NCBI GenBank assembly: GCA_947631625.1
Contig: CANRMA010000003.1
Span: 1 to 64,000, forward strand
Direction of reading: 5' to 3'
Source of the DNA: an uncultured Lachnospiraceae bacterium
GTDB lineage: Bacteria > Bacillota > Clostridia > Lachnospirales > Lachnospiraceae
DNA: 64,000 bases
In this document: positions 19,297 to 36,742 of the stretch, in pieces
Position numbering within the stretch: position 1 is the stretch's first letter
How the letters are laid out: every line of letters begins with the position of its first letter
The notes under the pieces: generated by a model
What the model was told of the DNA's origin: nothing
Database searches by the model: none
The model's input: the letters and a program-made list of their open reading frames with translations, nothing else
Program-made: the position numbers and the translations under genes

Positions 19297-20748
19297 TTAT
19301 ACATTTATGTCGGCCTTAATTCCAAGCAATTCTTTGTTTTCGTCGAGGATGGGCCGAATGATCTCTTTAAGGAAGTTTTCAACCTGTACGGGGGCGCAGC
19401 CTATGTATTTGGAAGGATCCATAGTCTCGCCCAGTTCCTCAATGCTCATATTGAATGACTTATCGTTTGCAATAAGTTCAAGCAGGTTGTTTTCCCTGCC
19501 TTCTCTTTTTACGTTCGCGCCGGCTTCCATGGAAAGCTCACGTATCCTCTCATGCAGCTGCTGACGGTCGCCGCCTGCCTTAACGGCGTCCATCATTATA
19601 TTTTCCGTCGCCATAAAGGGCAGTTCGCTCATAAGATGTTTGGTAATAACCTTATCATACACTACCAGTCCGTCCACAACATTCAGACACAGATCCAGAA
19701 TACCGTCAACGGCAAGAAAGGCTTCCGGAATGGAAAGTCTCTTGTTGGCGGAGTCGTCAAGCGTCCTTTCAAACCACTGCGTCGCCGACGTAATGGCGGG
19801 ATTGAGGGCGTCTATAATAACAAAACGGGACAGCGAAGCTATTCTCTCGCTTCTCATAGGATTTCTCTTATACGCCATTGCCGAAGAACCTATCTGGCTT
19901 TTTTCAAAAGGCTCTTCAACTTCTTTAAGGTGCTGCAGCAGCCTTATGTCGTTGGACATTTTATGCGCGGACGCCGCAATTCCGGCAAGGATATTGCAGA
20001 CTCTTGTATCCACTTTACGGGAATAGGTCTGGCCCGATACCGGATAACATTTTTCAAAGCCCATTTTGGCCGCTATCATGGGATCGATCTTGTCAACCGT
20101 CTCCTGATCGCCGTCAAAAAGCTCTAAAAAAGAAGCCTGTGTTCCGGTGGTTCCTTTGGAACCCAACAGTTTCATTGTTGAAAGGACATGATCAAGGTCT
20201 TCCAAGTCCAAACAAAATTCCTGAGCCCACAATGTCGCCCTTTTGCCCACTGTCGTCGGCTGCGCAGGCTGAAAATGCGTAAATGCAAGCGTCGGCAGTT
20301 CTTTATATTTATCGGCAAAATCCGCAATTTTGGCAATAACGTTCACAAGCTTTTTCTTGACAAGTTTAAGCGCCTGAGTCATCACGATAATATCGGTGTT
20401 GTCCCCGACATAGCAGGAGGTGGCTCCCAGATGAATGATGCCCGCCGCCTTCGGACACTGCTTACCGTATGCATAAACGTGGCTCATCACGTCATGGCGC
20501 ACTTCTTTTTCCCTTGCTTTGGCAACGTCGTAATTTATGTCTTCGGCATGAGCCTTTAGTTCGTCGATCTGTTCCTTGGTAATGACCGGTTTTCCGTTCC
20601 GGCTAAGCCCAAGTTCCATCTCGGTTTCCGCAAGCGCTATCCAGAGCTTGCGCCATGTCCTGAATTTCATGTCCGGTGAGAAAATATACTGCATTTCCTT
20701 GCTGGCATATCTTTCTGACAACGGACTTACATATCTGTCTGTGCTCAT
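19297..20748 (-). CDS. purB: Adenylosuccinate lyase
   Basis: PurB removes fumarate from SAICAR and from adenylosuccinate, so it acts in both IMP synthesis and AMP formation. At 483 residues it belongs to the longer type. The fumarase/aspartase superfamily signature GSSAMAYKRNPMRSERI is near the centre. IHLGATSCYVGDNTD, TTVGKRATLW and GTTGTQASF are the other conserved blocks. AAGGAGAAGG precedes the ATG. It lies between purF (35 bp) and purA (32 bp) on one strand. Confidence 0.97.
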   Translation of the reverse strand: MSTDRYVSPLSERYASKEMQYIFSPDMKFRTWRKLWIALAETEMELGLSRNGKPVITKEQIDELKAHAEDINYDVAKAREKEVRHDVMSHVYAYGKQCPKAAGIIHLGATSCYVGDNTDIIVMTQALKLVKKKLVNVIAKIADFADKYKELPTLAFTHFQPAQPTTVGKRATLWAQEFCLDLEDLDHVLSTMKLLGSKGTTGTQASFLELFDGDQETVDKIDPMIAAKMGFEKCYPVSGQTYSRKVDTRVCNILAGIAASAHKMSNDIRLLQHLKEVEEPFEKSQIGSSAMAYKRNPMRSERIASLSRFVIIDALNPAITSATQWFERTLDDSANKRLSIPEAFLAVDGILDLCLNVVDGLVVYDKVITKHLMSELPFMATENIMMDAVKAGGDRQQLHERIRELSMEAGANVKREGRENNLLELIANDKSFNMSIEELGETMDPSKYIGCAPVQVENFLKEIIRPILDENKELLGIKADINV

Positions 20749-20783
20749 ATCCTTCTCCTTATCAAAATTCTACATAACAAGTG

Positions 20784-22220
20784 TTATTTATCGTATTCAC
20801 CTCGAATATCTTCTTTAGGCGGCTCTAGCGGATATCTGCCGGTAAAACAGCCTGTGCATATTCCCAAGCCCCCCGCTATCTCTTTAAGACGCTCTATGTT
20901 AAGATATGCAAGGGTATCCGCTCCTATTATCTGTCTTATCTCTTCTACGGTACGGTTATTGGCGATAAGCTGCTCTTTCGCCGGAACGTCCGTACCGAAA
21001 TAGCAGGGCCACAGAAACGGCGGCGAGCTGACGCGCATATGAACCTCGGCGGCTCCCGCCTCACGCAGCATCCTTACTATCCTGTCGGAAGTCGTGCCTC
21101 GCACTATGGAATCGTCTATCATTATGATCCTTTTACCCCGGACCGCTTCCCTTATCACGTTTAACTTGACCTGAACGCCGCTCTCGCGGTTTTTCTGTTT
21201 GGGGCTGATAAAAGTACGCCCCACGTAGGAATTTTTTACAAAGGCCTGCCCGTACGGTATGTGGGACTGCATGGAATAACCGAGCGCGGCGCAGTTGCCC
21301 GACTCAGGCACTCCCACGACCAGATCCGCGTCCACAGGCGAATCCATAGCGAGGAATTTCCCCGCCATTATCCTTGAATCGTAGACGCTTACACCGTCTA
21401 TGTGGCTGTCCGGCCTTGCAAAATATATATATTCAAATACGCATCTTGCCTGTTTGTCTTTATCTATGCAGAGACTTTTATCGGATTCGACGCCTTTGGA
21501 CGGCGAGATCGTAACTATTTCTCCCGGTTCCACGTCTCTTACATATTCCGCGCCTATGGTATCCAAAGCGCAGGTTTCCGACGCAAGTATATAGGCGTTG
21601 TCGCGCTTTCCGATGCACAGCGGCCTGAAACCGAAAGGATCCCTCGCGCCTATGAGTTTGCGCGGAGACATTATTACAAGGGAATAGGCTCCTTTGATCT
21701 TCTGCATAGCCCGTCTTACCGCTTCTTCAACGGTGGCGCTGTTAAGCCTCTCTCTCGCTATATGGTATGCTATGACTTCGGAATCTATGGTCGTCTGGAA
21801 AATGGCTCCGGAGTATTCCAGTTCATGCCGCAGCTCGGGAGTATTTATAAGGTTGCCGTTGTGCGCCATGGCAAGAGTGCCTTTTACGTAATTAAGCACA
21901 AGCGGCTGAGCGTTTTCCCTGGTACTGCTGCCTGCCGTGGAATACCTGACATGCCCCACTCCGATATCGCCTTTTAAACGCTCAAGGGTCTCCGGCGTGA
22001 AGTTTTCATGTATAAGCCCCATATCTTTGGAGCTTGTGACCTTCCCTTTGGGGCCGTTAGTCTCGCTTACCGCTATTCCGCAGCTCTCCTGTCCTCTGTG
22101 CTGAAGCGCAAAAAGCCCGTAATAGATAGTAGACGCCACATCCGCGCCGTCAAAGTCGTAGATGCCGAAGACGCCGCACTCCTCGCCAAGTTTATCAGAT
22201 CCGCAATTTACGTCCGTCAT
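20784..22220 (-). CDS. purF: Amidophosphoribosyltransferase PurF
   Basis: PurF makes phosphoribosylamine from PRPP and glutamine, the committed step of purine synthesis. The 478-residue protein has a 14-residue pro-peptide ending EE before Cys15 (ECGVFGI), which becomes the N-terminal nucleophile after processing. YGLFALQHRGQESCGI, AHNGNLINT and the PRPP loop IIMIDDSIVRGTTS are intact. Cysteines near the C-terminus (GICTGCFTGRYP) fit the 4Fe-4S type of PurF known from Bacillus subtilis. It lies between purC and purB. The 113 bp leader from purC holds a direct repeat, described separately. Contrast the paralogue at 16545. Confidence 0.97.
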   Translation of the reverse strand: MTDVNCGSDKLGEECGVFGIYDFDGADVASTIYYGLFALQHRGQESCGIAVSETNGPKGKVTSSKDMGLIHENFTPETLERLKGDIGVGHVRYSTAGSSTRENAQPLVLNYVKGTLAMAHNGNLINTPELRHELEYSGAIFQTTIDSEVIAYHIARERLNSATVEEAVRRAMQKIKGAYSLVIMSPRKLIGARDPFGFRPLCIGKRDNAYILASETCALDTIGAEYVRDVEPGEIVTISPSKGVESDKSLCIDKDKQARCVFEYIYFARPDSHIDGVSVYDSRIMAGKFLAMDSPVDADLVVGVPESGNCAALGYSMQSHIPYGQAFVKNSYVGRTFISPKQKNRESGVQVKLNVIREAVRGKRIIMIDDSIVRGTTSDRIVRMLREAGAAEVHMRVSSPPFLWPCYFGTDVPAKEQLIANNRTVEEIRQIIGADTLAYLNIERLKEIAGGLGICTGCFTGRYPLEPPKEDIRGEYDK

Positions 22221-22333
22221 AAATATACCTCATTCCCGTTTAAACCTGATGCACAAATATCATGTAAAACATAGCTGCTCTTTGAAAACAGCTTCTGTTG
22301 TGAAACTTCTGTTGTGAGCGTCAGAATATCTCA
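22221..22333 (-). repeat. Direct repeat and hairpin in purC-purF gap
   Basis: On the minus strand CACAACAGAAG occurs twice, three bases apart, near 22291-22316. AGCTG and CAGCT form a short hairpin about 10 bases further on. This could be a regulatory or processing site between purC and purF. No PurR box or riboswitch was recognised. Confidence 0.4.
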
Positions 22334-23041
22334 TCATGCCAACCCAAGACGCTTAAATACTTCGTTATAAGCCTCTTCCACATTGCCTAAATCTCTGCGG
22401 AAACGATCCTTATCAAGCTTTTCATTGGTATTTACATCCCAAAGTCTGCAGGTGTCGGGGCTGGTTTCGTCGGCCAGGATTATATGTCCGTGATAACGTC
22501 CAAATTCTATCTTAAAATCGATAAGTTTGATATCAGCCTGTAAAAAGTATTTCTTAAGAACTTCATTTACTTTAAACGCATATTTCTTGATCGTCTCGAT
22601 CTCTTCCCATGTCGCAAGCTTCATGGCAACCGCAAAATAGCTATTGATAAGCGGATCGCCAAGCTCGTCATTTTTATAGCTGAATTCTATCGTAGGTTCG
22701 TCAAAAGGAGTTCCCTCTGCAACCCCAAGCCTCTTGGAAAAGCTTCCCGCCGCGACGTTACGGATTATGACCTCAAGCGGTACTATCTCAACCTTCTTGA
22801 CCGCCGTTTCCCTGTCGCTTAACTCTTCTATAAAATGTGTAGGCACGCCTTCTTTTTCAAGAAGTTTAAATACATGGTTGGTCATCCTGTTGTTAATGAC
22901 GCCCTTTCCTACTATGGTGCCTTTCTTTTCCCCGTTAAACGCCGTAGCGTCATCCTTATAATCCACAATCAGAATATCCGGATCGTCTGTCTTAAATACC
23001 TTCTTAGCCTTTCCCTCATATAACTGCTCCAATTTCTGCAT
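22334..23041 (-). CDS. purC: SAICAR synthetase
   Basis: PurC condenses CAIR with aspartate using ATP. The 235-residue protein begins [20 protein letters not shown]. The ATP-site block [13 protein letters not shown], the conserved IPLEV-like [17 protein letters not shown] and the motif [10 protein letters not shown] are all present. GGAGG precedes the ATG. It leads the minus-strand purine genes. An inverted repeat in the 115 bp upstream separates it from the four-gene operon that starts at 30183. Confidence 0.97.
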
Positions 23042-23156: not shown

Positions 23157-24341
23157 TTACATACTTTTCTCGTACATTTCAACCATTTCTATAATTTCTC
23201 CGGCATACTGGGGATATTGCTTTACAAGTTCCTTGATCTCTTTCTGGGCGCCGCCCGCCGCGACTTCTTTATTATAGTCCATGCGGCGTCTTAAGGACTG
23301 TCTTCTTATTATCAGATTGTGGCGGATCTCCACCATTTCCTTATGATCAAGAATTGCTTCCGTCTGATGAAGCCAGATCGCAGGGTCTTTTATACGGTAG
23401 CGTCTTAATATCTTTATAAGCTCCTGCTGATTATAGTCCAAGTCAAGTTCAGCGCGCCTTATCTTCTCACGCTCCTCTTTTTCCTTATCATAATTCTCCC
23501 AGAGCTTTTGAAGTTCGTCGGCGCTTTTTACGTCGTATTTTAAATAAAGATAATCCAAAAGATTGGTATTGTTCACATATCTGATCTTAACCTTATTGTG
23601 CAGAACTATCAGCTTATTTATGGAAGACTCCACCTTTTTAAGTTCGCGCTTTGCATCGGTATGTTTAACGTATATGACCGTGATTGCGACAGCTCCGACC
23701 GCAGCGGTTATAAGATATCCGGCCCTGGTGTCCATTTCCAACAGGAACTGCAGTATAAGCAGCATTCCAAAGCACAGCACAAGCGCGATCGTGAATATGA
23801 ACGCCATTCCTCTCGTATCCGCGATAATGCCAAGCAGTTCATTCTTACGGTAGTAATAGGCATGTCTTTCGCCTTCCAATCTGTTTAGGTCCTTTTTTAT
23901 AAGTTCCTGATACTGCTCTGCTTCCTTTAACTTGGCGGTCCCTTCTTCAATCTCATCAAGCATCCGCTCTATCTGGTAAAAGCGTTCGTCGCTCATTCTG
24001 CGTTTTCTGACTGTGTAGTCGTCCCTGCTGTTTTGCAGAAGCTCCACTTTTTTTGCGACGTTTTTCAGTTCCTCCGCTTCCTCCTCGGGCAGAGCCTCTA
24101 TTTCCTCCATATCCCGAAGATCTGACGTGACCGTATCGTACTCATACGTAAGGTTCTCCATCTCTTTAGAAGCCTGCGCTATCCGCTCAAGGCGGCCTTT
24201 TACATAGTCCTGACGGAATTCCCGGTTGGTAAAGTCCTGTACTTCCTCTTCTTCCCCAACGCCGTCCCGGTCCTCCTCTTCAAAATCAGGCTCCCTCGTT
24301 ATATCCTTCCATTTTCGTAATAATTTATCTAACCACTTCAT
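23157..24341 (-). CDS. Coiled-coil protein with two membrane segments (operon gene 4)
   Basis: The 394-residue protein is highly charged. Acidic and coiled-coil regions (about 40-165) lead into two adjacent hydrophobic segments (FIFTIALVLCFGMLLILQFLL and GYLITAAVGAVAITVIYV, roughly 180-222). A second long helical, basic region fills the rest. No signal peptide or known domain is seen. Both large parts probably face the cytoplasm, linked by a membrane hairpin. Its ATG directly abuts the stop codon of gene 3, so translation is likely coupled. It is the last member of the four-gene operon and may anchor that system to the membrane. The function is unknown. Confidence 0.6.
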   Translation of the reverse strand: MKWLDKLLRKWKDITREPDFEEEDRDGVGEEEEVQDFTNREFRQDYVKGRLERIAQASKEMENLTYEYDTVTSDLRDMEEIEALPEEEAEELKNVAKKVELLQNSRDDYTVRKRRMSDERFYQIERMLDEIEEGTAKLKEAEQYQELIKKDLNRLEGERHAYYYRKNELLGIIADTRGMAFIFTIALVLCFGMLLILQFLLEMDTRAGYLITAAVGAVAITVIYVKHTDAKRELKKVESSINKLIVLHNKVKIRYVNNTNLLDYLYLKYDVKSADELQKLWENYDKEKEEREKIRRAELDLDYNQQELIKILRRYRIKDPAIWLHQTEAILDHKEMVEIRHNLIIRRQSLRRRMDYNKEVAAGGAQKEIKELVKQYPQYAGEIIEMVEMYEKSM

Positions 24342-25187
24342 TTATCCAGACACACTCTCCCTATATTCGTCTTTAAGCGCAGCCGTCAGGCTTTCTATCT
24401 CATCATAATATTGCACGTCCGCCGCCGTGGCCGCTCCCTCGTCCTTGCATACGCGAAGGGTAAAAAGCATTCTGTTTTCCCGCGTAGCGTCAAACCCCTC
24501 CGCAGCCTCATCTATCATGTGTTCAACCCTGAGTGAGATTTCATGCAGCGCGCTGTTGTCTGCAATATAATCGACATACTCCTTTTCCGTGCTTCCAAGA
24601 CGCTTCGCCGCCAGAAACCGTTCAAGGCTTTCTTCATTTCCGCTTATCTCATACGCCTGCATGAATTCCCGGGCCGCATGGTCAAACATAAAAAGTCCTG
24701 CATAGGCTACTCCGCTGTTATGGTGCAGCGAGGCCTTAAGCGCCTCCTCCTTATCGGCCAATCCGGAAAGCAGGGCCGAATACTGCTCCAGGGCAAGTTT
24801 ATAGCGCCTGTTCCTAAGCAGGTGGTCAGCTCTTGCCTTTTGCTTCTCATAAGGGCTGAGCCCCGCGTTCTCACTGACAAGCGAAACCGTATGCGCTATA
24901 CTTCCGGGCGGATACAGGCCCACATAACTTAGTATGGCCTCCACCCAGGCCGCGGGAGAAGCTTTTTCCTTAATAAGCCTGTACAGCTCGTCGGCAAGAT
25001 CCGGCAGCATACACTGATCTTTTATCCACTTAGCCAGTTTGTCGCTTACTATATCCGTATCCAACATTTCAGCGTTTTCGACAAGGCAGCAGCAGAGTTC
25101 TTCGATTGAAAAAAGGTTTACATAACATTTTTCAAAAAAATACGGAATCCGCGCAATGCTTCCTGTCGTCAATATAATGTTTCCCAT
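24342..25187 (-). CDS. Helical repeat protein of unknown function (operon gene 3)
   Basis: This 281-residue cytoplasmic protein is almost all helical. A central stretch (ARADHLLRNRRYKLALEQY, followed by KASLHHNSGVAYAGLFMFD and HAAREFMQAYEISGN) reads like two or three tetratricopeptide repeats, usually protein-binding platforms. The opening MGNIILTTGSIARIPYFFEK is shared by no family I can name. ATG 25187 was chosen because it falls 20 bp after the stop of gene 2. A longer frame would run back into that gene. Its stop codon touches the start of gene 4. In this operon it probably links the Hsp70-like protein to the membrane protein, which is inference only. Confidence 0.6.
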   Translation of the reverse strand: MGNIILTTGSIARIPYFFEKCYVNLFSIEELCCCLVENAEMLDTDIVSDKLAKWIKDQCMLPDLADELYRLIKEKASPAAWVEAILSYVGLYPPGSIAHTVSLVSENAGLSPYEKQKARADHLLRNRRYKLALEQYSALLSGLADKEEALKASLHHNSGVAYAGLFMFDHAAREFMQAYEISGNEESLERFLAAKRLGSTEKEYVDYIADNSALHEISLRVEHMIDEAAEGFDATRENRMLFTLRVCKDEGAATAADVQYYDEIESLTAALKDEYRESVSG

Positions 25188-25207
25188 ATTCTGACCAAAC
25201 CTTTCCG

Positions 25208-26533
25208 TCAGTCTGCAACAACAAACTGTTTTCTCCATACTTTTCCCGCGGCGGGAAAAAGTTCTCCAAAACCTAAGTCCGTTATCCTGGCCTCAACACA
25301 GGCAACGGAGCTCATTTTTATCTCCATTTCATATCTGCAGAACGCGCCTTCCCTGACCGGCGCTCCCTCCAGAACTATTTCCTGAATTTCCGCGCGTCTG
25401 CCGTTTAGGGGCGTTATCACAAAAGACAGCGTATTTTCTTCACCCGGCAGCAGGAATTCACATACCCTGCGCGCCTCGTACCAGTTCTGACCGGCGTCCA
25501 AAAGCGCATAGTAGGACTCTTTCCCCCGCTTTAACACGTTCATCCCGATATTGGATTTGAGTTTGTCGGCCCCCAAAAATATATGCGCCGCTCCCGCCTC
25601 AGATGGCTGTACTTTCTCAAGCAGGGCATAGCAGGCGCCTTTGCTGAAAAGATTGTTGCCCTGAAAAACTCTGCGGTTGCGGCATAAAAAACGCAGGGAT
25701 TCCTTAGCCCAATCATTCTTAAATCCGTCTCCCAAAAGATAAGCGCACGAGACTATTCTTTCTTCGCATTGCTTTTTCAATATATCGGTAAACTTCGAAT
25801 CCGCCAGACCGTACAGGCTTGCTTTCACGTCCTCTTCTTCATCCGGCTTCGGCAGAATAACGTCGCAATATGTCTGTTCTTCAATTAGCACAACTATGGG
25901 CGTGGTCTTTTTGTTGCGCTCCATACGGTAGGTTTTAAGCCGTTTTCCGTCATGCTCGCAGGCCAGCGTCTGATAATTCCACAGCTCTTCACTCTGATGA
26001 AGCATAAAATTATAGAAACTTTCGGTATGACTCTGAAAATATATGTGCGGCGTCTTAAGATTGAGATTGGCCGCAGCTTTGGCCAGCACTTCCACCATCA
26101 CGTCATCGAGCTCGTCCACGGTAAACATTATCGCCCCGATATTCTCAGGGTCAACTATCATGCTCAGCAGGGAAAGGCTTCTTTTTATAAAAAGCGCCAA
26201 CAGTCCCACTGCCTCCGTTTTTTCCTCCCCTATCTCGATCCTTTCCCCTTTTCTTGCGAGCCCTACCAGATCCGTGATAAGATACGCGCCCTCTTCACCT
26301 GCGCTGTTTAACGCCTCTTTTCCGTAAAGCCACTTACCGCTGTCCTTTAGTTTACATAATGCGAGCGGAATGTTGTACTGCCTGCTCCCCATCACTGTCG
26401 GAACGGTTTCCGCCTCACTGTTTTCGCTGCCATAGATCATGCAGCTTATCTGGGAAAACTCATTATTCAGATCATAGCCGACAAGCGCGCTGCCTTTATG
26501 CGGTTTTTCATTCGCCTTCTTATCAAAAAACAT
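25208..26533 (-). CDS. Hsp70/actin-like fold protein, DUF5716-type (operon gene 2)
   Basis: The 441-residue protein looks like a distant relative of the Hsp70/actin ATPase superfamily. ALVGYDLNNEFSQIS (16-30) matches the first phosphate-loop position (DLGTTNS in Hsp70). IGAIMFTVDEL and the following helix resemble the Hsp70 block before the second lobe. CAYLLGDGFKNDW with NLFSKGACYALL fits the third, adenosine-proximal block. The glycines of the phosphate loops are largely missing, so nucleotide hydrolysis is doubtful. The last about 100 residues are beta-rich, like a small substrate-binding domain. I recall this type as DUF5716 from Lachnospiraceae. It lies 26 bp after the giant gene 1. Confidence 0.6.
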   Translation of the reverse strand: MFFDKKANEKPHKGSALVGYDLNNEFSQISCMIYGSENSEAETVPTVMGSRQYNIPLALCKLKDSGKWLYGKEALNSAGEEGAYLITDLVGLARKGERIEIGEEKTEAVGLLALFIKRSLSLLSMIVDPENIGAIMFTVDELDDVMVEVLAKAAANLNLKTPHIYFQSHTESFYNFMLHQSEELWNYQTLACEHDGKRLKTYRMERNKKTTPIVVLIEEQTYCDVILPKPDEEEDVKASLYGLADSKFTDILKKQCEERIVSCAYLLGDGFKNDWAKESLRFLCRNRRVFQGNNLFSKGACYALLEKVQPSEAGAAHIFLGADKLKSNIGMNVLKRGKESYYALLDAGQNWYEARRVCEFLLPGEENTLSFVITPLNGRRAEIQEIVLEGAPVREGAFCRYEMEIKMSSVACVEARITDLGFGELFPAAGKVWRKQFVVAD

Positions 26534-26559
26534 ATTTATCCTTTCAGAGTTTTGTTATT

Positions 26560-29500
26560 TTATATCGGTTCAAATAATCTCTGCGTTATGAAATCCTTTT
26601 TATAATATTCTTCCAGAAGCTTGTCTACCGTATCATAGTCGTGCAGAGTTTTCCCTATCATTATGTCATTTAGCATATTAAAGCGGCTGCCCTCGCATAC
26701 ACCGTCGGCGCTGCCGTCTCCGATATCGCTTTTGCCTATGCTGCCGCTTAGCATGACTTTCTCCTCGCCGTCAACCTCTTCGGTTATGTAATATTGAAGG
26801 GTCTCGCCGAAAAACAGCACAAATTCCTTTACAAATATCCCCAAAAAGACTTCCCGCATATTTTCTTTTATAAAACCGGGATTGGAAAGGGAGCCTTTCA
26901 GTATCATGTAATGAATGTTCACGCGGTTTCCCGGCATGCTTCTGTACTCGATCAGAGATTTATCCTGTAATATGTCAAGCCGGGGCAGATATCCCTGAAA
27001 TTCTTTATATATCGGCAGGACTATCTGCCGTTCCATCATATCACTCAGAAATTCCTGCAATATTGCTTTGGAATCATCATCAAGCTCATTTTTATTTTCG
27101 GCATAATACTGTATGTAGGCAAGCCTGCATACGGGATGGAGAGACACTCCTTCGCGGCGCATGCGGGCGATGGCGTCAACCAACGCGGAATCGGTAATTT
27201 TTTCCTTTATTACGTAATCATAGCTGTTCTGGGAAAGAAAGGCCACGATTATGTCGTCGTTTCCACCGCCTTTGATATAAGCCGTGAATATATCCATAGC
27301 CTCTCCTATGTAGGCGCCCGTGTAGAGAAGCTGTATTATTATGCGCTCGCAAAGCTCATAGGCATCCACGCCATATCGGACCGCTATATTGCGGATATCG
27401 CGCATATCCTTAAGATTTCCGTTAAAATTACGTATCAGGTATTCCAGTATATATTCGTTGTATTTTCCCCTTTTTACAACATAATGCAGTACTGCAGTCA
27501 TATACTCATCATCTTCATATGTGCCGTCTGCAAGCAGGCCGCTGCAGAGCTTGGCAAGCGTTTTGGCGTCAACACTGTAAAAAGCGCCGTCCTTAATCCA
27601 CTCATAGGCCTCTTTATACATTCCGCGCAGCACAAAAAGCCTTACCGCCTCTTTTCTGTCCTGAAACGCAATATCCGACGGCTTTATTTCATGCAGATAT
27701 TCATCAAGCTCCCACATTCGGTCTTTTTCATAATAAAACTTAAGCAAGGAAAGCTTCATCTTCTGCCTGTTTGGTTCATCGATCAAATCGGAGCCCGCCA
27801 GGAATTTAAACTGCGCAAGATTGGGTTCGTCCGCCACAGCCGCATATTTGCCGCCAAAACATACGTTCAGCGCATAACCGGCATGTTCCGGCACAAACGG
27901 CGCCGCGTATTGCGCAAGCTTCTGCGCAGAGAACAGCTTATGAACGCTAAAAGCAACGGAAGACGCATATCTGTTCCGGTTTTCGTCTTCCAGGATTATA
28001 CTGCACTCGCTGTCATAAATCGGAATTCTGAAGCCGCGTCTATTGACCGCATAAGTCAATTCTTTTTCCGCATAAGGATACACCACTATTATATTCTTAA
28101 TCTCATCTGCGGACCATTCGCCGATATCTTTATCTTCTATCACGATCTCATGCAGAAACAGCATGTCCATGAGGCTCTTTGCAATTTCCTCAGTCACCAT
28201 TGGCTGAGTTATGACGTTACGGTAAAGATACGCCAGATCTTTGTTGATCGCGCCCGCCGCAGCCTGTTTTAACACAAATTTTTCAATGCGGGGCATATAA
28301 CTTATGTAAATATCCTGAAGCTCGTCCTGCCTTTTATGCACATAGGCATACAAATACGCCAGATATTCATGGCTTAAGTCGCTTGGATACGCAAAATACA
28401 TAAGGATCTCATTCGGCAGAGGTTCACTGTTGTCCAAAGGATGCGACATGACATAATATTCATACAGTCCGGTAATACGCAGGTTCTGCTCCACCCCTTC
28501 GCGATACCATTTAAAATAATCCTTACCGTATTTATTGCCTTTTATCAAAAGAGAACATATCGCCTGAAGGATATCGTTTTGCCTCTTTTTCTTATAACAG
28601 CCTGCAAGTATTTTAAAAAGCGGCTCCGAATAACCTTTCTGCGTCTGCGCCAGATAAATAAGCTGCAACAGCACTTCGTCCTTCATGGCATCGTTTTTGA
28701 CCGAATAAGTCAATATATTTATCTCAAAATCATTCAATCTAAGTAAAATGGCCGGATTTATACACAGCAGATTCCATGCCTCGAGATAGAGCATAGGGCT
28801 GTCGCAGCCGTATTCAAACGCTTCTTCCAACAGCTCCCACTTCCTGGCAGGCGTCCTGACTCTTTCATCCTCCAAAAACAAAAGCAGCCATACTATCCGC
28901 CAGTTGCCGCGGTTTCTCTTATATTGTGAAAAAATCTCCTGTGTCGCGCTGTCTATATAAACCTCGTCCTCGCTGCAAAGGGTTGACAGGTACAGATAAT
29001 AACACAGATATTCCGGTTTCTCATCCCCAAGCTCCTCTATTCTGTCCCTGTTATTTTCAAGCAGAAAACGGGCCTCATGAAAACGCTCCTTTGCCATAAG
29101 AAGCTGCGCCTGAAAAAGATCCGTCGCCGGATCGCCGTGATCCAACTCTTTTAAGCGCTCTATAAGCCCGGACGTTTCATCCATCCACGCTCCAACGCCG
29201 ATCTTTTTTAAACGGTAAGCCTGATAGTATTTCATCAGCTTTATTATTATCTTCTGTTTCTCTATGTGATGTTTATGCCTGCCGGGAAATCTGTCCGCGC
29301 ACTTTGTAACGTTCACGGGCACGGTAAGCACGCGTTCATAACTCCTAAGCCTGATACAGCCGTAATTGACGCCGTTATGCAGTTTATCCTTTTGTATGTA
29401 ATAATACAGGTGATAAACATTGCCAAGGAAATCATCGTCTGAGACTTTCTCCTGTTCCACCCTGATAAAATCACCGTCAGTCTCGATCAAAAGGGAAGTG

Positions 29501-30183
29501 TCCCCCCAGCCGTTTCGGTTTATCGTAAGTATGCAGCGCTGTTCTTCACCGGGATCTTCCGTATCCATCTTTATCTCTATTTCTATATGGGTCTTCTCGG
29601 GTATATACTCTATCGCCTTCTTTTTGCCTGTCTGCAGCAAAAACTCTTCAACGTTATGCTCATTGCCGTAAACGGCCGAAAGTCCTTTGTATACGGCGTA
29701 ATAATGGCTGTCATTACCTGTTAAAATTTTCACAAAGTCATCGCCGTAAAAAAATCTGACTGCCTCATCCCAGTCGGCTTTTGCAAGATTTATAAAATGA
29801 AACAGATTCCTGATCTCACCCAGACTTGAATTTATCACTTTACGATCGATAGTGACCGAAAAAGGAAGATAGTATTCTCCCTGATTGGATTCTATATAAA
29901 AATTACCTTTTACGGTATCCGAAACTTTCATTCCCGTGGTATCTATCCGATAATATATTTCGTCCTGAAGCCCGGCAAACTCCGGCGTGAGACATTCCAT
30001 GCGGATATCGGAGGAAAGCGCCTTGCCCTCGGTAACGACCCCTTCTTCCCCGTATATGGTAAAGGATCCCTCATGTACGCAGTCAGGCAGGAGGGTCAGA
30101 TCTATGCGCGGGCATGAAAAATTAAGGGTAGTATTGTCCGCCCTGAAATTGCCTTCCAGTATTTCCCTGATGATCTGTCTCAA
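26560..30183 (-). CDS. Giant beta-sandwich/alpha-solenoid protein, DUF5717-type (operon gene 1)
   Basis: The 1207-residue protein has no signal peptide or membrane segment. Two N-terminal beta-sandwich-like regions (about 15-130 and 200-300, with repeating strand patterns such as GEYYLPFSVTIDRKV and NYGCIRLRSYERVLTVPVNV) precede some 800 residues of amphipathic helices resembling an alpha-solenoid (AQLLMAKERFHEARFLLENN is one TPR-like pair). I recall this type as DUF5717, found next to DUF5716 in Lachnospiraceae, with no known role. The start is TTG at 30183, preceded only by a weak GGTG site. The family-like opening RQIIREILEGNFR supports it. A good promoter lies just upstream. Confidence 0.6.
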   Translation of the reverse strand: MRQIIREILEGNFRADNTTLNFSCPRIDLTLLPDCVHEGSFTIYGEEGVVTEGKALSSDIRMECLTPEFAGLQDEIYYRIDTTGMKVSDTVKGNFYIESNQGEYYLPFSVTIDRKVINSSLGEIRNLFHFINLAKADWDEAVRFFYGDDFVKILTGNDSHYYAVYKGLSAVYGNEHNVEEFLLQTGKKKAIEYIPEKTHIEIEIKMDTEDPGEEQRCILTINRNGWGDTSLLIETDGDFIRVEQEKVSDDDFLGNVYHLYYYIQKDKLHNGVNYGCIRLRSYERVLTVPVNVTKCADRFPGRHKHHIEKQKIIIKLMKYYQAYRLKKIGVGAWMDETSGLIERLKELDHGDPATDLFQAQLLMAKERFHEARFLLENNRDRIEELGDEKPEYLCYYLYLSTLCSEDEVYIDSATQEIFSQYKRNRGNWRIVWLLLFLEDERVRTPARKWELLEEAFEYGCDSPMLYLEAWNLLCINPAILLRLNDFEINILTYSVKNDAMKDEVLLQLIYLAQTQKGYSEPLFKILAGCYKKKRQNDILQAICSLLIKGNKYGKDYFKWYREGVEQNLRITGLYEYYVMSHPLDNSEPLPNEILMYFAYPSDLSHEYLAYLYAYVHKRQDELQDIYISYMPRIEKFVLKQAAAGAINKDLAYLYRNVITQPMVTEEIAKSLMDMLFLHEIVIEDKDIGEWSADEIKNIIVVYPYAEKELTYAVNRRGFRIPIYDSECSIILEDENRNRYASSVAFSVHKLFSAQKLAQYAAPFVPEHAGYALNVCFGGKYAAVADEPNLAQFKFLAGSDLIDEPNRQKMKLSLLKFYYEKDRMWELDEYLHEIKPSDIAFQDRKEAVRLFVLRGMYKEAYEWIKDGAFYSVDAKTLAKLCSGLLADGTYEDDEYMTAVLHYVVKRGKYNEYILEYLIRNFNGNLKDMRDIRNIAVRYGVDAYELCERIIIQLLYTGAYIGEAMDIFTAYIKGGGNDDIIVAFLSQNSYDYVIKEKITDSALVDAIARMRREGVSLHPVCRLAYIQYYAENKNELDDDSKAILQEFLSDMMERQIVLPIYKEFQGYLPRLDILQDKSLIEYRSMPGNRVNIHYMILKGSLSNPGFIKENMREVFLGIFVKEFVLFFGETLQYYITEEVDGEEKVMLSGSIGKSDIGDGSADGVCEGSRFNMLNDIMIGKTLHDYDTVDKLLEEYYKKDFITQRLFEPI

Positions 30184-30221
30184 CTAAGTAACACCACACT
30201 TTGTTTTGTAGTTTTGTTATA

Positions 30222-30250
30222 ATTATACCATTCATAAAAGGGTTAGGCAA
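30222..30250 (-). promoter_or_regulatory. Sigma-A promoter of the four-gene operon
   Basis: TTGCCT (30245-30250) and a perfect TATAAT (30222-30227) are separated by 17 bases. They lie about 40 bases before the TTG start of the giant gene 1, giving a short leader. Confidence 0.7.
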
Positions 30251-30327: not shown

Positions 30328-33300
30328 TTATCTTAACAGGCCTGACAAAGCCGCCGCGGCTTCGTCGAACACCTTATCAAGAGGGTTGTTTCCGATATTC
30401 CTTGAAACTATACTGAATTTGGACGATTTTGCTCCCATCAGACCGCTTCCTTCTCGCGGTTTCACAATAACCGTCACTTTGCCCTTATTAACGTTATTGA
30501 CGTAAATTATTTCACAATTTTTTGAAATATCGGGCGTGTTCTTCCCTATTGTCACTTTTACTCCCGCAGGTACGACTTCCTCACCCGTGAACTCGAATTT
30601 GGAAGCCCGGGCAGTAAGCTTATCGTCGCTATAGAATATGACCTTAGCTTTGGAAAGATTGTTTCCGGCGGTAACTTTGGCCTTATTCCATATAGTATAA
30701 CTGCCTGTGACTTCTTTTCCCTCTTCCGTTTTATAATTCTTACCTTTGGCTTTGATCTTCATATACACGGTGGCGGAATCGGCGCCGTTAAACTTCGCTT
30801 TCGGCTTTGAAGTATATGTTCCGTTCTCACTGCCGACGCTGTATGTAACCTCATATTCGGAAGCTTTGACCAATATATTGTTTATCGTCACGTAAGGCGC
30901 TGCTTTACAACTTGCATTCTCTTTACATATCTTGTCTAAAGCCACTGCCTCAATTCCATCAACCGTACTGTCAAGCGCTGCCTTTTCAACCTTAAAGGTT
31001 TGGTTAGCTTCGGCTAACCTTCCCTTGAAATTGCCTTTAAAAGTTATTGTGTACTTAGCATTGGAGTCGGCCTTCTTATTACCGCTGAAAGTAAGCTTAT
31101 AGTCTTTTCCGTTTGTCAAAATATCGCCATTCCATTTAATGATAAGATCGTCGAGCATAGCCCCGCTGCCTGTATAAACAGCAGTATTTTCAGCCCCTTC
31201 TATGACGACTTTATCGGGCGACGCCGTATCCTGTGACGAACCCGTTATGGTTCTTGGCTGAATCTTAACCGATTTACTCACGCTGCATCCACTGTAATCT
31301 CCAAGACCGACCACGGTAAATTTAACTGTCCCGGCGTTTAGAGTATTATCGGGCATTATTACCGCATACTTAGTTCCCAAGCCTTCCGCATTATATATAT
31401 TCTTATCTTTATCGGCCCCGCTTACAGGCGTTATGGCTTTAATGCAGTCAAGTATTTCCCGGTCAAGTTCAGTACCGGAATAAACAAGTTTTTTGACTTT
31501 GTCCCCGTCAAGCGTCACCTTGAATTTAGCTGTTTTATTCTTAAGCTCATCCTTGCTGTATGTCCTGACGTTAATGTTGAGCGCACCCTCGTAATTGCCC
31601 TGACCGACGACCGTCACAGCATCATTTTCACTCCAGTCAGTTTTGGTCTTATCGGCCGCCGTCTTATAAGCATAGTCTTTATTTATCTTAAGTTTAAGTC
31701 CGTTATGGAATATGGCGGGCGCCGATATTTTTTTGCCCTTCTGTATTACTATATCGGCCGCTGCCATGGAATCGTCCGTTACGGCATCGGAGATATCCTT
31801 AGGTCTTATTTCAAATGTTATTGTCTCTTTGCCTGAAATAATTCCTTTACCGGTAATCGTGACCGCAGGCAGTTTATTCTCATTTACAGGTTTATATCCG
31901 CCGTTGGCGTCGGCTTTTACGGACGCATTTACATTATTGCGGTATTTAACCGTGTAGTCGCTGCCTTCGACAAGCGCATTGCCGTTATGACCATACACGG
32001 TTACTGCGGGCTTTATGGCAGCGCCGGTGTATATAAAGGAACTGCCGTCAAGTTCGACGTACCATGCGCCGTAATCGTCATTGCCGCTGTCTCCCCCGAC
32101 CTCATACTTAAATACCGCGGGTTTACTATAGAGCCCCGTTCCGTCCGTCTTTTGCGCAACGGCTCTTATCGTTGTCGTTTTATTGATCGTTATTGCGTCG
32201 CCGGACGCATATTCCTTTCTATTGCCGCCTTCAGCTCTCGGATCGGTATCATCAAGAGTATAATACAGTTTATCGTTTGGATCATTATGGTTAAGAGTCA
32301 CCTTAGCGCCTTTTTCAACATAACCGCCGTCAGGCGCAGGATCGGCAGTGATCCCTGCGTCATAAGGCTCAGGTTCAGTTTCCGAATCCACATCTTCTTC
32401 TACAACAATATAGAGTATGAAATGATCCCCTACGCCGGCTTTTATACTGTGCGTACCTGCCTGCACATTTTCAAATGTATACTCTGTCGGTACGTCGGTA
32501 AGTATGCGTGAAGCATTATCCAACATGACTGTTCTGTTTTCAGTCAACTTATCGGCAGCCACATAGGCGCAGATCGTAACCGTGGCGCTGCCTGTATTTG
32601 TAAATGTTATCTTCCTGTTATCGCTTCCCGAAGCCGACCCGTATTTATACCGCCAGTTATACTTCGTTATTCCGGAACCGGATTTACTGTCAGAGGGGGC
32701 ATCAGCCTCCACCTTAACTCCGCTGCTGTCCGCAGTCTGAAACATCGAAGTCTTTTTAGCGGTATTGACCAGAGTAAAATAACCATTGTTATCTTTTAAG
32801 GTTCCGTACTGTCCGGTAGCTGATATATCCGTATTGTTCGCATATCCTTTCTCCTGTGCTATTAACTGCGGATTAAACTCGTATTTATCAGTCGCCGCAG
32901 TATCTGAAACAACTGTATACACAAACGTGGATACGTTGCTGGATATATATCCCGGCTTTTGCGTATATGCCTTGATCGTTGTTTTATAGTTGATCGTTAT
33001 CGCGCCGTCATAATAAAGATAAACATTGGCATTTTTCGTATCTTTAGGATCGGAGCCATCCGTAGTATACAGGATCTTTACATCGTCGCCCTGCGTGCCG
33101 CTGCTTAAAGTGATCTTTGTCTCTTTTTTCACCTTGCCGGATGAAGGATTGGCCTTAGGCGCTTCAGCATACAGAACTTCCTCTTCATCTTCAAATACCG
33201 TATAAGAAAATTCCGTGATCCCGCTTGTCTTATCCCCTTTAACGGCGATAGCTTTTATGGTTGTATCTTTATCAATTACAACAGGACCGTCGCTCACGTC

Positions 33301-36300
33301 CTCATTGGCATCATTATAAAGGGTTCCATGCTGCGCGGAAGGAGTGGTCCCGTCTATCGTAAAATAAACATCCGCTCCGTCAGTATCACAGCCAAGATAT
33401 ACCTCAGTTCCCTTTTCAACCTTTGAGCCGTCAGGTATGTCGGCCCACGGAGCGGACACTGTATCGGAATCCTCTGCCGCGTCATCCGGTTTAAATTCTA
33501 TGTAATACAGGTTAGCCGAATCGCCTTTGCTAATCTCATGCTGACCTGCTGCAAGATCTTTTACGGTAATTATTCCTGCGGACGCAGTTTCATTATTACC
33601 GTCAACTTTGGTTTTTCCGTTAAAATCCGTTCCGTGGACCAGTATCAGCGTTCCCGCACCGGCTGAAGTAAATTTAATGGACGTAGCCGTTTCCATCTTA
33701 AGAGCAGCCGTCAATTCCAGACCGTTATACGTTACCTTTGGCGGATTGCTTTTCATATTGCCGCTTATGGCATAAAAGTCGCTTGTCTTGCCGCTTATTG
33801 TAAAGTTATGCACATAGCCTCCCGCGGGACTTGGAGTTGTGCCTGTTGAAGAAACAGTATACACAAATGTGACAATTTTACTCCATTCATCACCGCTCTT
33901 AGCCGCCGCCCTTATAGTTACCGTTTCATTTATCGTTATCTCCTTAGAGTCGCCTGTAAATGTTTGAGCGGCGGCGCTGCTTGTAGGGTCCGTACCGTCC
34001 TCCGTATAGTATACCGTTGCTCCTGCCGCATTATTGATAAGTGTTATCTTTTCTCCCTTATTTACTGTCCCTGAGGCCTTACTTGATGTGGGCGCTTTGA
34101 CTGCCCCCGTGTCTTCTCCGGCGCTTGGAATCGTATATGTGTAAGTGGAAACCGTGCTGGATACGCCGTCGAGTACCGCAACCGCCTTTATCACAATATC
34201 TTCATTGACAGTAATTGCCGCCGTATATTCCATGCTTCCCGCTGTCGGAACCGTTCCGTCAGTCGTATAGTAAATCTTAGCGCCGGGAGTTGAAGTTTTT
34301 AAAGTGATGGTTGTTCCCTTTGCCACCTCGCCCGACGCCTTATCCGCATAAGGAGCTGCCACAACCGCGCCTGCCAAACCGCCTGATGTGGATACGCCGT
34401 CAATTCCGCCTATTGATTTAACGCTGCTCTGATAACCTTCCACTATACTCTTAAGCTCCGGAATAACGCCGTAATTGCTGTCTTCAGATGATGAAAAAGT
34501 ATAGCTTATATCTCCTCCGCCCAGGCGTCCCGCCTTAGATGTGACTATATCCTTAACATCATCAGGAGAATCTATATTCTCCGGCTTTACGCCAAGATCA
34601 TATTTATCCGTATCCGTATCAAAATTATTGTATACAGTGCCGCCTTTAACTGTCTTGTATGTAGAAGGAACTTTTTCATCCCTTGCTGACGCGAGATATG
34701 CGTCAAAGCTTACCGGATCCGCCGTCAGAGTGCTGCCTTCTCCATCCGAATTGGCATAAACAAGGCTGTGCGCGCCTTCTATCTTATTATTAAAGGCCTT
34801 GATCATACCGCCGTTCTCACCAGAGAAAGTACCCTTTTCGGCCCGCGCGTCGCTTCCCTGAAGAGAACTCATCATAGGATTCTTACAGCCTCTGAAATAG
34901 TTAGCCTCAACAAACGCATTGCTTCCTTTAGTTGTTCCCACGCCGTATTTGGAGTTTCCGTCAAAGTAGTTATTATAAAGATGAACGGAAGCCACCCTTA
35001 TTCGCGGATGTCTGGAGTCGGAATGGTCAAACCAGTTATGATGATATGTAACCAAAAATTCCGCGCTGTCGCCCATACCGCAGAGCGAACACTTACCTGA
35101 ATCCCAGAAATGGTTATACGATACGGTTATATTGGTAGAAGCTCCTTTAATATCGACTGAACCGTCGCCTTTTGCCTGATCGGAATCTCCGCCGACGGCG
35201 CCGTAAAAAAGCTCTATGTCATGAACCCATACATTACAGTTGCCCGTATCAATGGACACACCGTCGTCCATGAAATTCATTATGGCAAAGTTCCTAAGCT
35301 CAACATTTCCACAGTTTCTAATAAGAAAACCAAAGCCTTTGATCGTTGCGTCTTCTCCTATACCTTCAATGGTCATGTTCATACCTGAGTAATATGCCTT
35401 ACCCTTAACCTGAAGTCCTTCAGAAGCGCTTGAAATATGGTCAAGGTCTTCTCTGTTCAAACAGCCTATAACTCTTATATCAATAACGTCGATATCAGTG
35501 CCGGACTTTTGCTTGGCGTCCAGTATTGACTGCAGACCCGTCACCTCAACTGCAGGTTTGGAAGCGCCGTTTGAATGTATCAGGGCGGTACATGTCTTCG
35601 CCGTATCGGCAGTTACGTAAACGACCTGCGCGCCGCTCCTTAAAGTGCCGTCATCATTATATGCGCCCGAGCCTGTGCCAAACTGAGACTTCTCGGAAAA
35701 TGCAAACCCTGAACGGTCATAGTTTGTCACAGTCATCTTATCCGTTTCTGCCGAAACGATTTTTTTAGATGTGTCCAGATCCTTTTTACCGTCTTTTTCC
35801 GTTACCGATCCGGCTTCGATCTTAATAACATAATTGCTGCCTGCCGCAAGACCTACCGCATCCACTCTCCAATAATCCGGATATTTACGGATAAGCTCAT
35901 TATCTATCCTTTCATAAACGGCTCCGCCGTCCTTACTTATAGAGGCGCGATATCCGTCAGCGCCCTCAACAGCCTCCCACTCCGCATAGACTCCTTCTTC
36001 ATAGCCTCCGCATTCCGTGATCTTAACAGCATCTGCCGCAATATCTTCCGAAACTTCCGCATCCACAGCCTCTTCAGCATTATCAATGACGGCCGTTTCA
36101 TCAGCATCGTCAACGTCTCCCGTTTCATCAGCATCGCCAATGTCACCCGTTTCGTCAGCATCGCCAACATCCCCTGTTTCATCAGCATTGCCAATGTCAC
36201 CCGTTTCATCAGCATTGCTGATATCATCTGCTTCATCAGGATCCGTTTCCACGTCCTGCGGCCCTTCGTCCACTGTATCGGAAACAGACGGCAGTTGTCC

Positions 36301-36585
36301 GCCAGCTTCGCTGCCTGCGCCGTCCACAACTTCCGGTTCGGACTTATTGCCCCCCCCATCATTGCCCGATTCGTTATCGTTTTCAAACTCTGTATCATTC
36401 GTACCTTTTTCATCCTGCGTAATGCCGCCGATGGATTCAGGCCCATCAGAATTAACATAACTATCGTTATTTAATTCTTCCGCCATAACTACTCCTGCGC
36501 TCCCCATAAGATCTGCAGGCAATGCGCTTATGACCATCAATAATGCCATAATACGCGCAATTATCGTTCCTGACCTTTTCTTCAT
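30328..36585 (-). CDS. Giant secreted pectate lyase with CHB_HEX and Ig-like repeats
   Basis: The 2085-residue protein should cleave pectic polygalacturonate outside the cell. Order of parts: signal peptide (about 1-37); acidic linker with a nine-residue repeat ADETGDIGN (about 119-163); a fibronectin-III-like domain; a polysaccharide lyase family 1 beta-helix (about 370-640) with YHHNWFDHSDSRHPRIR, whose Arg residues match the catalytic region, and HLYNNYFDGNS; and five chitobiase C-terminal-type repeats (YYTTDGTVPT, YYTEDGTDPT, YFTIDGTTPS, YTTDGSDP, YYTLDDTDP). Two beta-sandwich modules that may bind carbohydrate are interleaved. The last about 600 residues are Ig/YDG-like repeats. No sortase motif is present. 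ATG 36585 follows AAGGGGGG, and a G8 run lies in the linker. Confidence 0.85.
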   Translation of the reverse strand: MKKRSGTIIARIMALLMVISALPADLMGSAGVVMAEELNNDSYVNSDGPESIGGITQDEKGTNDTEFENDNESGNDGGGNKSEPEVVDGAGSEAGGQLPSVSDTVDEGPQDVETDPDEADDISNADETGDIGNADETGDVGDADETGDIGDADETGDVDDADETAVIDNAEEAVDAEVSEDIAADAVKITECGGYEEGVYAEWEAVEGADGYRASISKDGGAVYERIDNELIRKYPDYWRVDAVGLAAGSNYVIKIEAGSVTEKDGKKDLDTSKKIVSAETDKMTVTNYDRSGFAFSEKSQFGTGSGAYNDDGTLRSGAQVVYVTADTAKTCTALIHSNGASKPAVEVTGLQSILDAKQKSGTDIDVIDIRVIGCLNREDLDHISSASEGLQVKGKAYYSGMNMTIEGIGEDATIKGFGFLIRNCGNVELRNFAIMNFMDDGVSIDTGNCNVWVHDIELFYGAVGGDSDQAKGDGSVDIKGASTNITVSYNHFWDSGKCSLCGMGDSAEFLVTYHHNWFDHSDSRHPRIRVASVHLYNNYFDGNSKYGVGTTKGSNAFVEANYFRGCKNPMMSSLQGSDARAEKGTFSGENGGMIKAFNNKIEGAHSLVYANSDGEGSTLTADPVSFDAYLASARDEKVPSTYKTVKGGTVYNNFDTDTDKYDLGVKPENIDSPDDVKDIVTSKAGRLGGGDISYTFSSSEDSNYGVIPELKSIVEGYQSSVKSIGGIDGVSTSGGLAGAVVAAPYADKASGEVAKGTTITLKTSTPGAKIYYTTDGTVPTAGSMEYTAAITVNEDIVIKAVAVLDGVSSTVSTYTYTIPSAGEDTGAVKAPTSSKASGTVNKGEKITLINNAAGATVYYTEDGTDPTSSAAAQTFTGDSKEITINETVTIRAAAKSGDEWSKIVTFVYTVSSTGTTPSPAGGYVHNFTISGKTSDFYAISGNMKSNPPKVTYNGLELTAALKMETATSIKFTSAGAGTLILVHGTDFNGKTKVDGNNETASAGIITVKDLAAGQHEISKGDSANLYYIEFKPDDAAEDSDTVSAPWADIPDGSKVEKGTEVYLGCDTDGADVYFTIDGTTPSAQHGTLYNDANEDVSDGPVVIDKDTTIKAIAVKGDKTSGITEFSYTVFEDEEEVLYAEAPKANPSSGKVKKETKITLSSGTQGDDVKILYTTDGSDPKDTKNANVYLYYDGAITINYKTTIKAYTQKPGYISSNVSTFVYTVVSDTAATDKYEFNPQLIAQEKGYANNTDISATGQYGTLKDNNGYFTLVNTAKKTSMFQTADSSGVKVEADAPSDSKSGSGITKYNWRYKYGSASGSDNRKITFTNTGSATVTICAYVAADKLTENRTVMLDNASRILTDVPTEYTFENVQAGTHSIKAGVGDHFILYIVVEEDVDSETEPEPYDAGITADPAPDGGYVEKGAKVTLNHNDPNDKLYYTLDDTDPRAEGGNRKEYASGDAITINKTTTIRAVAQKTDGTGLYSKPAVFKYEVGGDSGNDDYGAWYVELDGSSFIYTGAAIKPAVTVYGHNGNALVEGSDYTVKYRNNVNASVKADANGGYKPVNENKLPAVTITGKGIISGKETITFEIRPKDISDAVTDDSMAAADIVIQKGKKISAPAIFHNGLKLKINKDYAYKTAADKTKTDWSENDAVTVVGQGNYEGALNINVRTYSKDELKNKTAKFKVTLDGDKVKKLVYSGTELDREILDCIKAITPVSGADKDKNIYNAEGLGTKYAVIMPDNTLNAGTVKFTVVGLGDYSGCSVSKSVKIQPRTITGSSQDTASPDKVVIEGAENTAVYTGSGAMLDDLIIKWNGDILTNGKDYKLTFSGNKKADSNAKYTITFKGNFKGRLAEANQTFKVEKAALDSTVDGIEAVALDKICKENASCKAAPYVTINNILVKASEYEVTYSVGSENGTYTSKPKAKFNGADSATVYMKIKAKGKNYKTEEGKEVTGSYTIWNKAKVTAGNNLSKAKVIFYSDDKLTARASKFEFTGEEVVPAGVKVTIGKNTPDISKNCEIIYVNNVNKGKVTVIVKPREGSGLMGAKSSKFSIVSRNIGNNPLDKVFDEAAAALSGLLR
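36095..36240. repeat. 27 bp in-frame minisatellite in the pectate lyase gene
   Basis: Five full units (36095, 36122, 36149, 36176, 36203) and a partial sixth code for variants of ADETGDIGN. All units are exactly 27 bp, so copy changes keep the reading frame. Confidence 0.9.
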
Positions 36586-36742
36586 GCTGTTACCCCCCTT
36601 TAAATATTTTTGGAATTCACAAATCAACCTCTCCTGATACCAAATTATCTGCATACAAGTTTATTTTAACATATATTTAAACTCCGGAACAACAAAATTA
36701 TTGTATTTCCAAACTATTCCCGAACCATATTATGGCAATATT

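Follow-up and report, generated by a model that had tools for sequence, protein, structure and literature searches.

What does an operon do that almost every member of a bacterial family carries, and whose first two genes are known to Pfam only as DUF5717 and DUF5716? The case considered here is a set of four genes on the reverse strand of a 64,000-nucleotide stretch of DNA (hereafter the window) from an uncultured Lachnospiraceae bacterium (assembly GCA_947631625.1, contig CANRMA010000003.1, positions 1 to 64,000): a giant solenoid protein (gene 1, DUF5717), an Hsp70-like protein (gene 2, DUF5716), a tetratricopeptide repeat (TPR) protein (gene 3), and a predicted coiled-coil membrane protein (gene 4). 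A first-pass annotation, made from the letters of the window, had described the set as a membrane-associated machine, chaperone-like or cytoskeletal, and had rightly noted that neither DUF family has a known role: Pfam gives none, and the literature that we searched, most subscription journals lying outside its scope, contains no account of the function of DUF5716 or DUF5717 or of the cluster described below. Our findings favor, with some confidence, a model in which a dedicated multi-Hsp70 machine was reduced to this operon, which contains no intact ATPase, and gene 2 acts as an ATP-independent binding scaffold. This analysis connected DUF5716 with Hsp70 and with a gene cluster of sister families; at the sequence level, the relation of the operon to that cluster is shown by similarity, gene order, and phylogeny, and the surviving Hsp70-like protein probably serves as a passive scaffold and not as a motor.

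A Large Multi-Hsp70 Cluster in Sister Families

In ten further families of the order Lachnospirales, relatives of gene 1 and of gene 2 are likewise found together. Among genomes outside Lachnospiraceae, a gene-2-type match below 1e-10 was found in 58/58 with DUF5717_N versus 2/103 without it, the cut-off having been set after a gap from 1.9e-12 to 1.7e-8 had been seen. We examined 22 sister loci, one per genome, out of 60 non-family genomes that matched strongly. A fixed order is found in 20 of them: DUF5717-N, DUF5717-solenoid, HspA, GrpE, HspB, HspC, HspD-VWA, and a TPR gene homologous to gene 3. The two DUF5717 parts are one frame in five sister loci, and a gene 4 homologue follows the TPR gene in 5. 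Pfam itself shows the VWA domain at loci L200 and L201 and the GrpE domain at L200, L201, and L203, the other sister loci being assigned by similarity to the L200 proteins. Within the fetched stretch the cluster is incomplete at L213 and L227, and at L201 both HspD and the TPR gene are interrupted, each running over two frames. In a genome outside the 22 (G559), it lies in three pieces, GrpE-HspB (L203, contig C15), HspC-HspD-TPR (L202, C19), and DUF5717-HspA (C8, at a contig end), a three-way split that hints at sub-modules.

The four Hsp70 paralogues differ in their state of preservation. At the positions that we take to be functional in DnaK (D8, K70, the GGGT phosphate loop, D201, and the catalytic glutamate E171), HspA (21/21) and HspC (22/22) are intact, as are the 20 HspD sequences that reach these residues; the HspD row of L201, the latter part of an interrupted frame, does not reach them. 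In HspB, no lysine occurs at K70 in 22/22, though Lys or Arg stands two columns on in 16, and D201 is replaced by Arg in 21/22. The lid is absent from HspA, HspB, and HspC, and Pfam scans of two clusters (L200 and L201) revealed no J-domain.

Descent and Losses of Gene 2

As the first-pass annotation had proposed, genes 1 and 2 are members of DUF5717 (DUF5717_N, E = 1.7e-275; DUF5717, E = 7e-95; PF18984, PF18983) and DUF5716 (DUF5716_C, PF18980, E = 5.5e-101). Its description of gene 2 as Hsp70/actin-like stands in the Hsp70 half. The gene 2 sequence alone matched nothing in PDB, and a narrower alignment (A5) found no DnaK there, unlike a diverse profile of 41 gene 2 sequences (A1), which reached DnaK with E = 2.3e-5. 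The best segment (profile 8-134) corresponds to the N-terminal nucleotide-binding domain; a C-terminal segment, weak on its own (about 5 bits), is collinear with the β part of the DnaK substrate-binding domain (SBD-β), the same region being reached by the alignment to HspC. Aligned by hhalign, the gene 2 profile matches the intact HspC of the sister cluster over 413 columns (E = 9.6e-18) and, weakly, the single sequence of Escherichia coli DnaK (E = 0.0011, 20% probability). We also searched three sets of Lachnospiraceae loci: 40 chosen from the better-scoring gene 2 matches, the best 80 of 579 relatives, and a separate 12; since at least two genomes are common to the first two sets, their counts are not summed. 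With the single HspC sequence of L200, an open reading frame was matched in 26/40, 48/80, and 2/12 of these loci, one per locus (best E = 6.6e-13), and all matches printed were gene 2. The decisive link is the intermediate HspB, which matches DUF5716_C and in L200 also HSP70 (PF18980, 1.8e-25; PF00012, 1.9e-16). Judged from its sequence, gene 2 is thus Hsp70-derived.

What has been lost is apparent from a MAFFT alignment of the 41 gene 2 sequences that includes E. coli DnaK. Neither the GGGT loop nor D201 nor K70 is conserved, whether residues are paired by MAFFT or by hhalign. Moreover, the equivalent of DnaK 211-300 is missing in 41/41, with 8 of the 90 residues held by all gene 2 sequences and 73 held by HspB of L201, the nearest sister locus; this stretch covers most of subdomain IIB, which we take to span about 228-310 of DnaK and to be the lobe gripped by GrpE. 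The lid (SBD-α) is also absent, DnaK 526-638 being essentially unoccupied. In six of the twelve loci of the separate set (L234, L239, L240, L241, L244, and L245), gene 2 additionally lacks parts of nucleotide-binding lobe I. With no intact phosphate loop, no GrpE in the family operon, and no lobe for GrpE to grip, an allosteric Hsp70 cycle seems unlikely in gene 2. The label chaperone-like suits the protein by descent, but the phosphate loop is unconserved and the lobe missing.

Phylogeny places gene 2 among the Hsp70s of the sister cluster. In a maximum likelihood tree (quick search; 79 rows, including 17/41 gene 2 sequences and 12/22 sister loci; support from the Shimodaira-Hasegawa-like approximate likelihood ratio test, SH-aLRT), gene 2 groups with HspB of L201 (SH-aLRT 99), HspB and gene 2 together form a clade (100), and this clade is joined to HspC (100). 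HspA and HspD form separate clades (100 each), and all cluster Hsp70s stand apart from canonical DnaK. Other Hsp70-like genes of the window's genus (L204, L205, L206, and L207) fall outside the cluster Hsp70 clade; each lies beside at least one protein with what appears by eye to be a J-domain-like N-terminus.

The remaining components were sought in the family. Seeds for HspA, HspD, and GrpE found no match in the 40, 80, and 12 family loci. The long GrpE protein of the cluster occurs in 21/21 further sister genomes (picked for carrying DUF5717_N, none having supplied a row to alignment A10) and its count in family genomes is 0/51, leaving aside a single weak match (E = 1.5e-4) to a frame of 989 residues. 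In the window's own genome, canonical DnaK is the only ordinary Hsp70 match, the other PF00012 matches lying in two frames, of 331 and 348 aa, that are shorter and correspond in size to MreB. The gene valS is a neighbor of the cluster at L201, and the stretches fetched for 13 family loci also include it, which is consistent with vertical descent. The simplest reading, we infer, is a reduction at the base of Lachnospiraceae, by loss rather than gain: HspA and GrpE on one side of HspB, and HspC and HspD on the other, would have dropped out, and DUF5717 would have become one gene.

Distribution and Gene Content in Lachnospiraceae

The reduced form is close to universal in the family. DUF5716_C matches 247/250 sampled Lachnospiraceae genomes, once in 244 and twice in 3; in a sample of the phylum, it was found in 4/299 genomes, all Lachnospiraceae, and DUF5717_N in the same 4/299. 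A sample of the class yielded DUF5717_N in 14/293 (13 Lachnospiraceae and one weak match below the cut-off), and a sample of the order in 93/196, comprising 35 in the family and 58/161 in the ten other families. In the three family genomes with no gene 2 match (G320, G373, and G379), a wider profile gave DnaK-like matches only, and no real gene 3 was found (G320 gave a weak TPR match, and the other two nothing). Such near-universal presence argues for a housekeeping role.

Genes 1, 2, and 3 are adjacent in 40/40 loci of the first set, with gene 4 next in 19. In the 80-locus set, gene 3 occurs at every locus, gene 1 in 79 (cut by a contig end in the remaining one and shortened in some others), and gene 4 in 77; the locus of Kineothrix alysoides KNHs209 (L108) has the complete set of four. 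Gene 3 was also found in 47/47 gene 2 carriers among 50 genomes, a set picked mainly for weak gene 2 scores to which the three lacking gene 2 also belong. Thus, the possibility that genes 3 and 4 are absent from most carriers of genes 1 and 2, raised by the first-pass annotation, does not hold for gene 3; it does hold for gene 4, which was matched in 103/250 family genomes, in two of them weakly (G436, E = 7.9e-19; G512, E = 1.8e-6). Where present, gene 4 keeps its place: of 61 genomes compared (other than that of the window, and drawn from the 103 with a match), 60 have it on the strand of gene 2, 729-1246 bp past the gene 2 domain match, and the remaining one carries the two genes on separate contigs. 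Where it is missing, various other genes come after gene 3, and the flanking genes are variable.

The partner proteins are partly recognizable. Gene 1, mostly two separate genes in sister families, is one fused gene in Lachnospiraceae. Of the β-sandwich/α-solenoid architecture first ascribed to it, the solenoid half is borne out by a profile search, which found TPR/PPR-like repeats; the N-terminus (about aa 1-300), which has no PDB match, appears strand-rich by a weak strand-periodicity test. Gene 3 is a TPR protein, as had been proposed: its family profile (A2) matches designed TPR proteins with E = 1.4e-37, along with many natural ones, and the sister-family homologue matches PF07719 (2.2e-21). 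In five of the 47 gene 2 carriers from the weak-scoring set, genes 2 and 3 are fused into one reading frame of 684-723 codons. Gene fusion is commonly a sign of direct partnership, so the two proteins are probably one unit. For gene 4, the coiled coil with a two-helix anchor remains the prediction, with hydrophobic stretches at aa 179-197 and 207-225 and two such stretches in each of 20 aligned sequences, the simple hydrophobic scan being unspecific by itself since it also flags a gene 2 stretch (109-127). The term membrane-associated would accordingly apply only to those genomes in which gene 4 exists.

A Probable Passive Scaffold and Its Alternatives

Taken together, the order of the sister cluster, the grouping of gene 2 with HspB, the missing lobe, and the fusions of genes 2 and 3 point to a reduced chaperone cluster whose remaining Hsp70 probably acts as an ATP-independent scaffold. 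In such an assembly, the solenoid of gene 1 would be the platform onto which the gene 2/gene 3 pair docks; the SBD-β-like domain of gene 2 would offer a static binding surface for one or few clients, with no ATP cycle; and gene 4, where present, would tether the assembly to the membrane. In its fullest form the model is more tentative, and we put it forward as a conjecture that may well need revision: an eight- or nine-gene Hsp70 assembly machine of Lachnospirales, with three active Hsp70s (one VWA-fused), a dead Hsp70, GrpE, and a solenoid platform, would have been turned by Lachnospiraceae into an ATP-independent pseudo-Hsp70 scaffold, a near-obligatory, family-defining structural complex.

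Several observations weigh against this model. Long branches and an unusual composition mark the rows of HspB and gene 2, and fine positions in the tree are therefore uncertain. In the family, HspA, HspC, and HspD were searched at the loci only, not genome-wide, and the window's genome is only 81% complete. The cluster is split in some sister genomes (G559 and G650), the three contigs of G559 indicating that it is not always one unit, and gene 4 is unmatched in 147/250 family genomes. Gene 2 itself retains Asp or Glu at D8 and the first adenosine-motif glycine, each in 41/41. At the MAFFT column of E171 it has His or Tyr in 36/41; yet a conserved Glu (33/41) stands two columns away, is paired by hhalign with the catalytic Glu of HspC, and has a likeness in HspB, with Glu two columns from E171 in 20/22. 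Loss of E171 was considered as evidence for inactivity and was dropped, being alignment-dependent. With the D8 acid and the adenosine glycine kept and E171 ambiguous, nucleotide binding and even slow hydrolysis may persist in gene 2.

These residues could also be taken to mean that gene 2 is a still active, unusual Hsp70 ATPase with a cycle of its own, and the Glu near E171 would then be the catalytic one. We judge this improbable given the unconserved GGGT loop, D201, and K70, the missing DnaK 211-300 equivalent, and the further erosion of lobe I in half of the twelve-locus set. Somewhat less improbable, yet still unlikely, is that the operon is ATP-driven in trans, gene 2 acting on canonical DnaK as an Hsp110-like cofactor or a client-handover partner. 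Hsp110 is itself a divergent Hsp70 that serves DnaK-type Hsp70s; canonical DnaK is there to be served in the window's genome, and in sister families HspB both adjoins the intact HspC and is its sister in the tree. Hsp110-type factors, however, keep lobe IIB and ATP binding, and the lobe is missing from every gene 2 sequence examined. The least credible alternative, in our view, makes gene 2 a filament of the cytoskeleton, actin-like or FtsA-like, that is partnered by a solenoid. Hsp70, actin, MreB, and FtsA have a common fold, and the first-pass annotation had accordingly allowed for a cytoskeletal complex. Neither that complex nor the actin half of its Hsp70/actin label finds support: against single sequences in hhalign, the gene 2 profile scores E = 0.22 with FtsA and E = 0.51 with MreB, versus the E = 0.0011 obtained with DnaK, and the C-terminus of gene 2 appears SBD-β-like.

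It is likewise doubtful, to about the degree of an active ATPase, that the operon belongs to a biological-conflict (anti-invader) system of the kind outlined by Kaur et al. 2020 (PMC7159879). The sister cluster has the corresponding parts: Hsp70s, GrpE, VWA, a strand-rich protein with a solenoid, and TPR. In a PADLOC search of nine L200 proteins, candidate models were matched by the Hsp70s (PDC-M61B, best 5.5e-9), the TPR protein (PDC-M71B, 2e-9), and the gene 4 homologue (JetC, 4.7e-5); we attribute these matches to Hsp70, TPR, and coiled-coil parts that the systems have in common. On the other hand, the four window genes had no PADLOC match at E up to 1. No GTPase was found in Pfam scans of 20 proteins at two sister loci (10 each at L200 and L201) or of the four window genes, the flanks of the other loci not having been scanned. 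The near-universal distribution in the family, mostly in one copy per genome, is also at odds with a system of this kind.

Lachnospiraceae rank with the most abundant bacteria of the gut, and DUF5716 is a near family-wide marker for them. Two DUF families become a testable chaperone problem once traced to a multi-Hsp70 cluster, and the intact Hsp70s, the degenerate HspB, and gene 2, with GrpE and its lobe both absent, may provide a natural series for the passage from an ATP-driven chaperone to a passive scaffold.

Layout of the Operon and Neighboring Genes

The four genes share one strand, as first described, with the gaps of 26, 20, and 0 bp borne out by the frame coordinates, taking the ATG at 25187 as the gene 3 start (table 1). 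GGAAAGG sits just 5' of this ATG; an alternative in-frame ATG upstream, at 25238, would overlap gene 2. The proposed sigma-A site is present and matches 10/12 consensus positions, but its standing as one clear promoter is less secure: the window contains 25 sigma-A-like sites versus 20.9 ± 4.8 in shuffles, no clear excess over chance, so that a single promoter and co-transcription are presumed rather than observed. Purifying selection is likely for all four genes, the ratios of change at codon positions 1 + 2 to position 3 against five close relatives being 0.25-0.51. An NCBIfam search of the four genes gave nothing above cut-off, and no Pfam family reached the cut-off with gene 3 or gene 4.

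Table 1. Features of the operon in the window.
Feature	Coordinates	Strand	Description and basis
Gene 1, DUF5717	26560..30183	-	1207 aa, TTG start; Pfam, open reading frame list
Gene 2, DUF5716, degenerate Hsp70	25208..26533	-	441 aa; lobe I, reduced lobe II, SBD-β-like C-terminus; Pfam, profile alignments
Gene 2 SBD-β-like C-terminal region, about aa 360-430	25244..25456 (limits approximate)	-	Alignment to DnaK SBD-β and HspC C-terminus
Gene 3, TPR protein with conserved N-terminal domain	24342..25187	-	Open reading frame and profile
Gene 4, predicted coiled coil and two-helix membrane hairpin, optional member	23157..24341	-	394 aa
Putative sigma-A promoter, TTGCCT-17-TATAAT, extended TG	30222..30250	-	Consensus match only

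Directly upstream of the operon (30328-36654, reverse strand) lies a gene whose 2108-residue product combines a pectate lyase domain with CBM77 and five repeats of the chitobiase C-terminal type. About 8 kb upstream is htpG (Hsp90; 38123-40423, reverse strand; PF00183, 7e-62), whose product has an acidic repeat-like insert; the gene is preceded by a perfect CIRCE (controlling inverted repeat of chaperone expression) element at 40496-40522, the only one in the window. Heat-shock control of the operon by HrcA was considered and rejected, no CIRCE (consensus with up to 3 mismatches) being found in the window operon or the 22 sister loci. Downstream are purC, purF, and purB (19297-23041, reverse strand; named from their translations), and a purA-like gene (adenylosuccinate synthetase) occurs within the fetched stretch of 18 other loci. 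Flanking genes such as valS and purA are useful for vertical inheritance only and give no clue to function.

Comparison with Known Systems

Among known families, the closest by name are Pfam DUF5717 and DUF5716_C, of which genes 1 and 2 are strong members and to which Pfam assigns no function. By descent the nearest system is DnaK-DnaJ-GrpE: sister clusters have catalytically intact Hsp70s and a GrpE domain, and gene 2 derives from these Hsp70s. The clusters differ from it in their several Hsp70 paralogues, the lidless state of HspA, HspB, and HspC, the VWA fusion, and the giant solenoid; the Lachnospiraceae operon differs further, having no phosphate loop, no GrpE-binding lobe, and no dedicated GrpE protein. 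Hsp110 and Grp170 are similar in being divergent, non-canonical Hsp70 partner proteins, but they keep both ATP binding and lobe IIB, the latter missing from gene 2.

A study of DnaK paralogues (PMC11019930) does not, in the part of it available to us, treat this cluster. The GAP1-N2 systems are GTPase-centric conflict loci that carry Hsp70, GrpE, and FNIII or TPR proteins (Kaur et al. 2020, PMC7159879); the string "DUF57" does not occur in the main text of that paper. The sister cluster resembles these systems in combining Hsp70 and GrpE with TPR or FNIII-type partners in a conserved neighborhood, and departs from them in its four Hsp70 paralogues and fixed order and in a reduced form that is near-universal in one family. 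Within the literature searched, the HSP70-GrpE theme of the GAP1-N2 systems is the nearest published description that we found.

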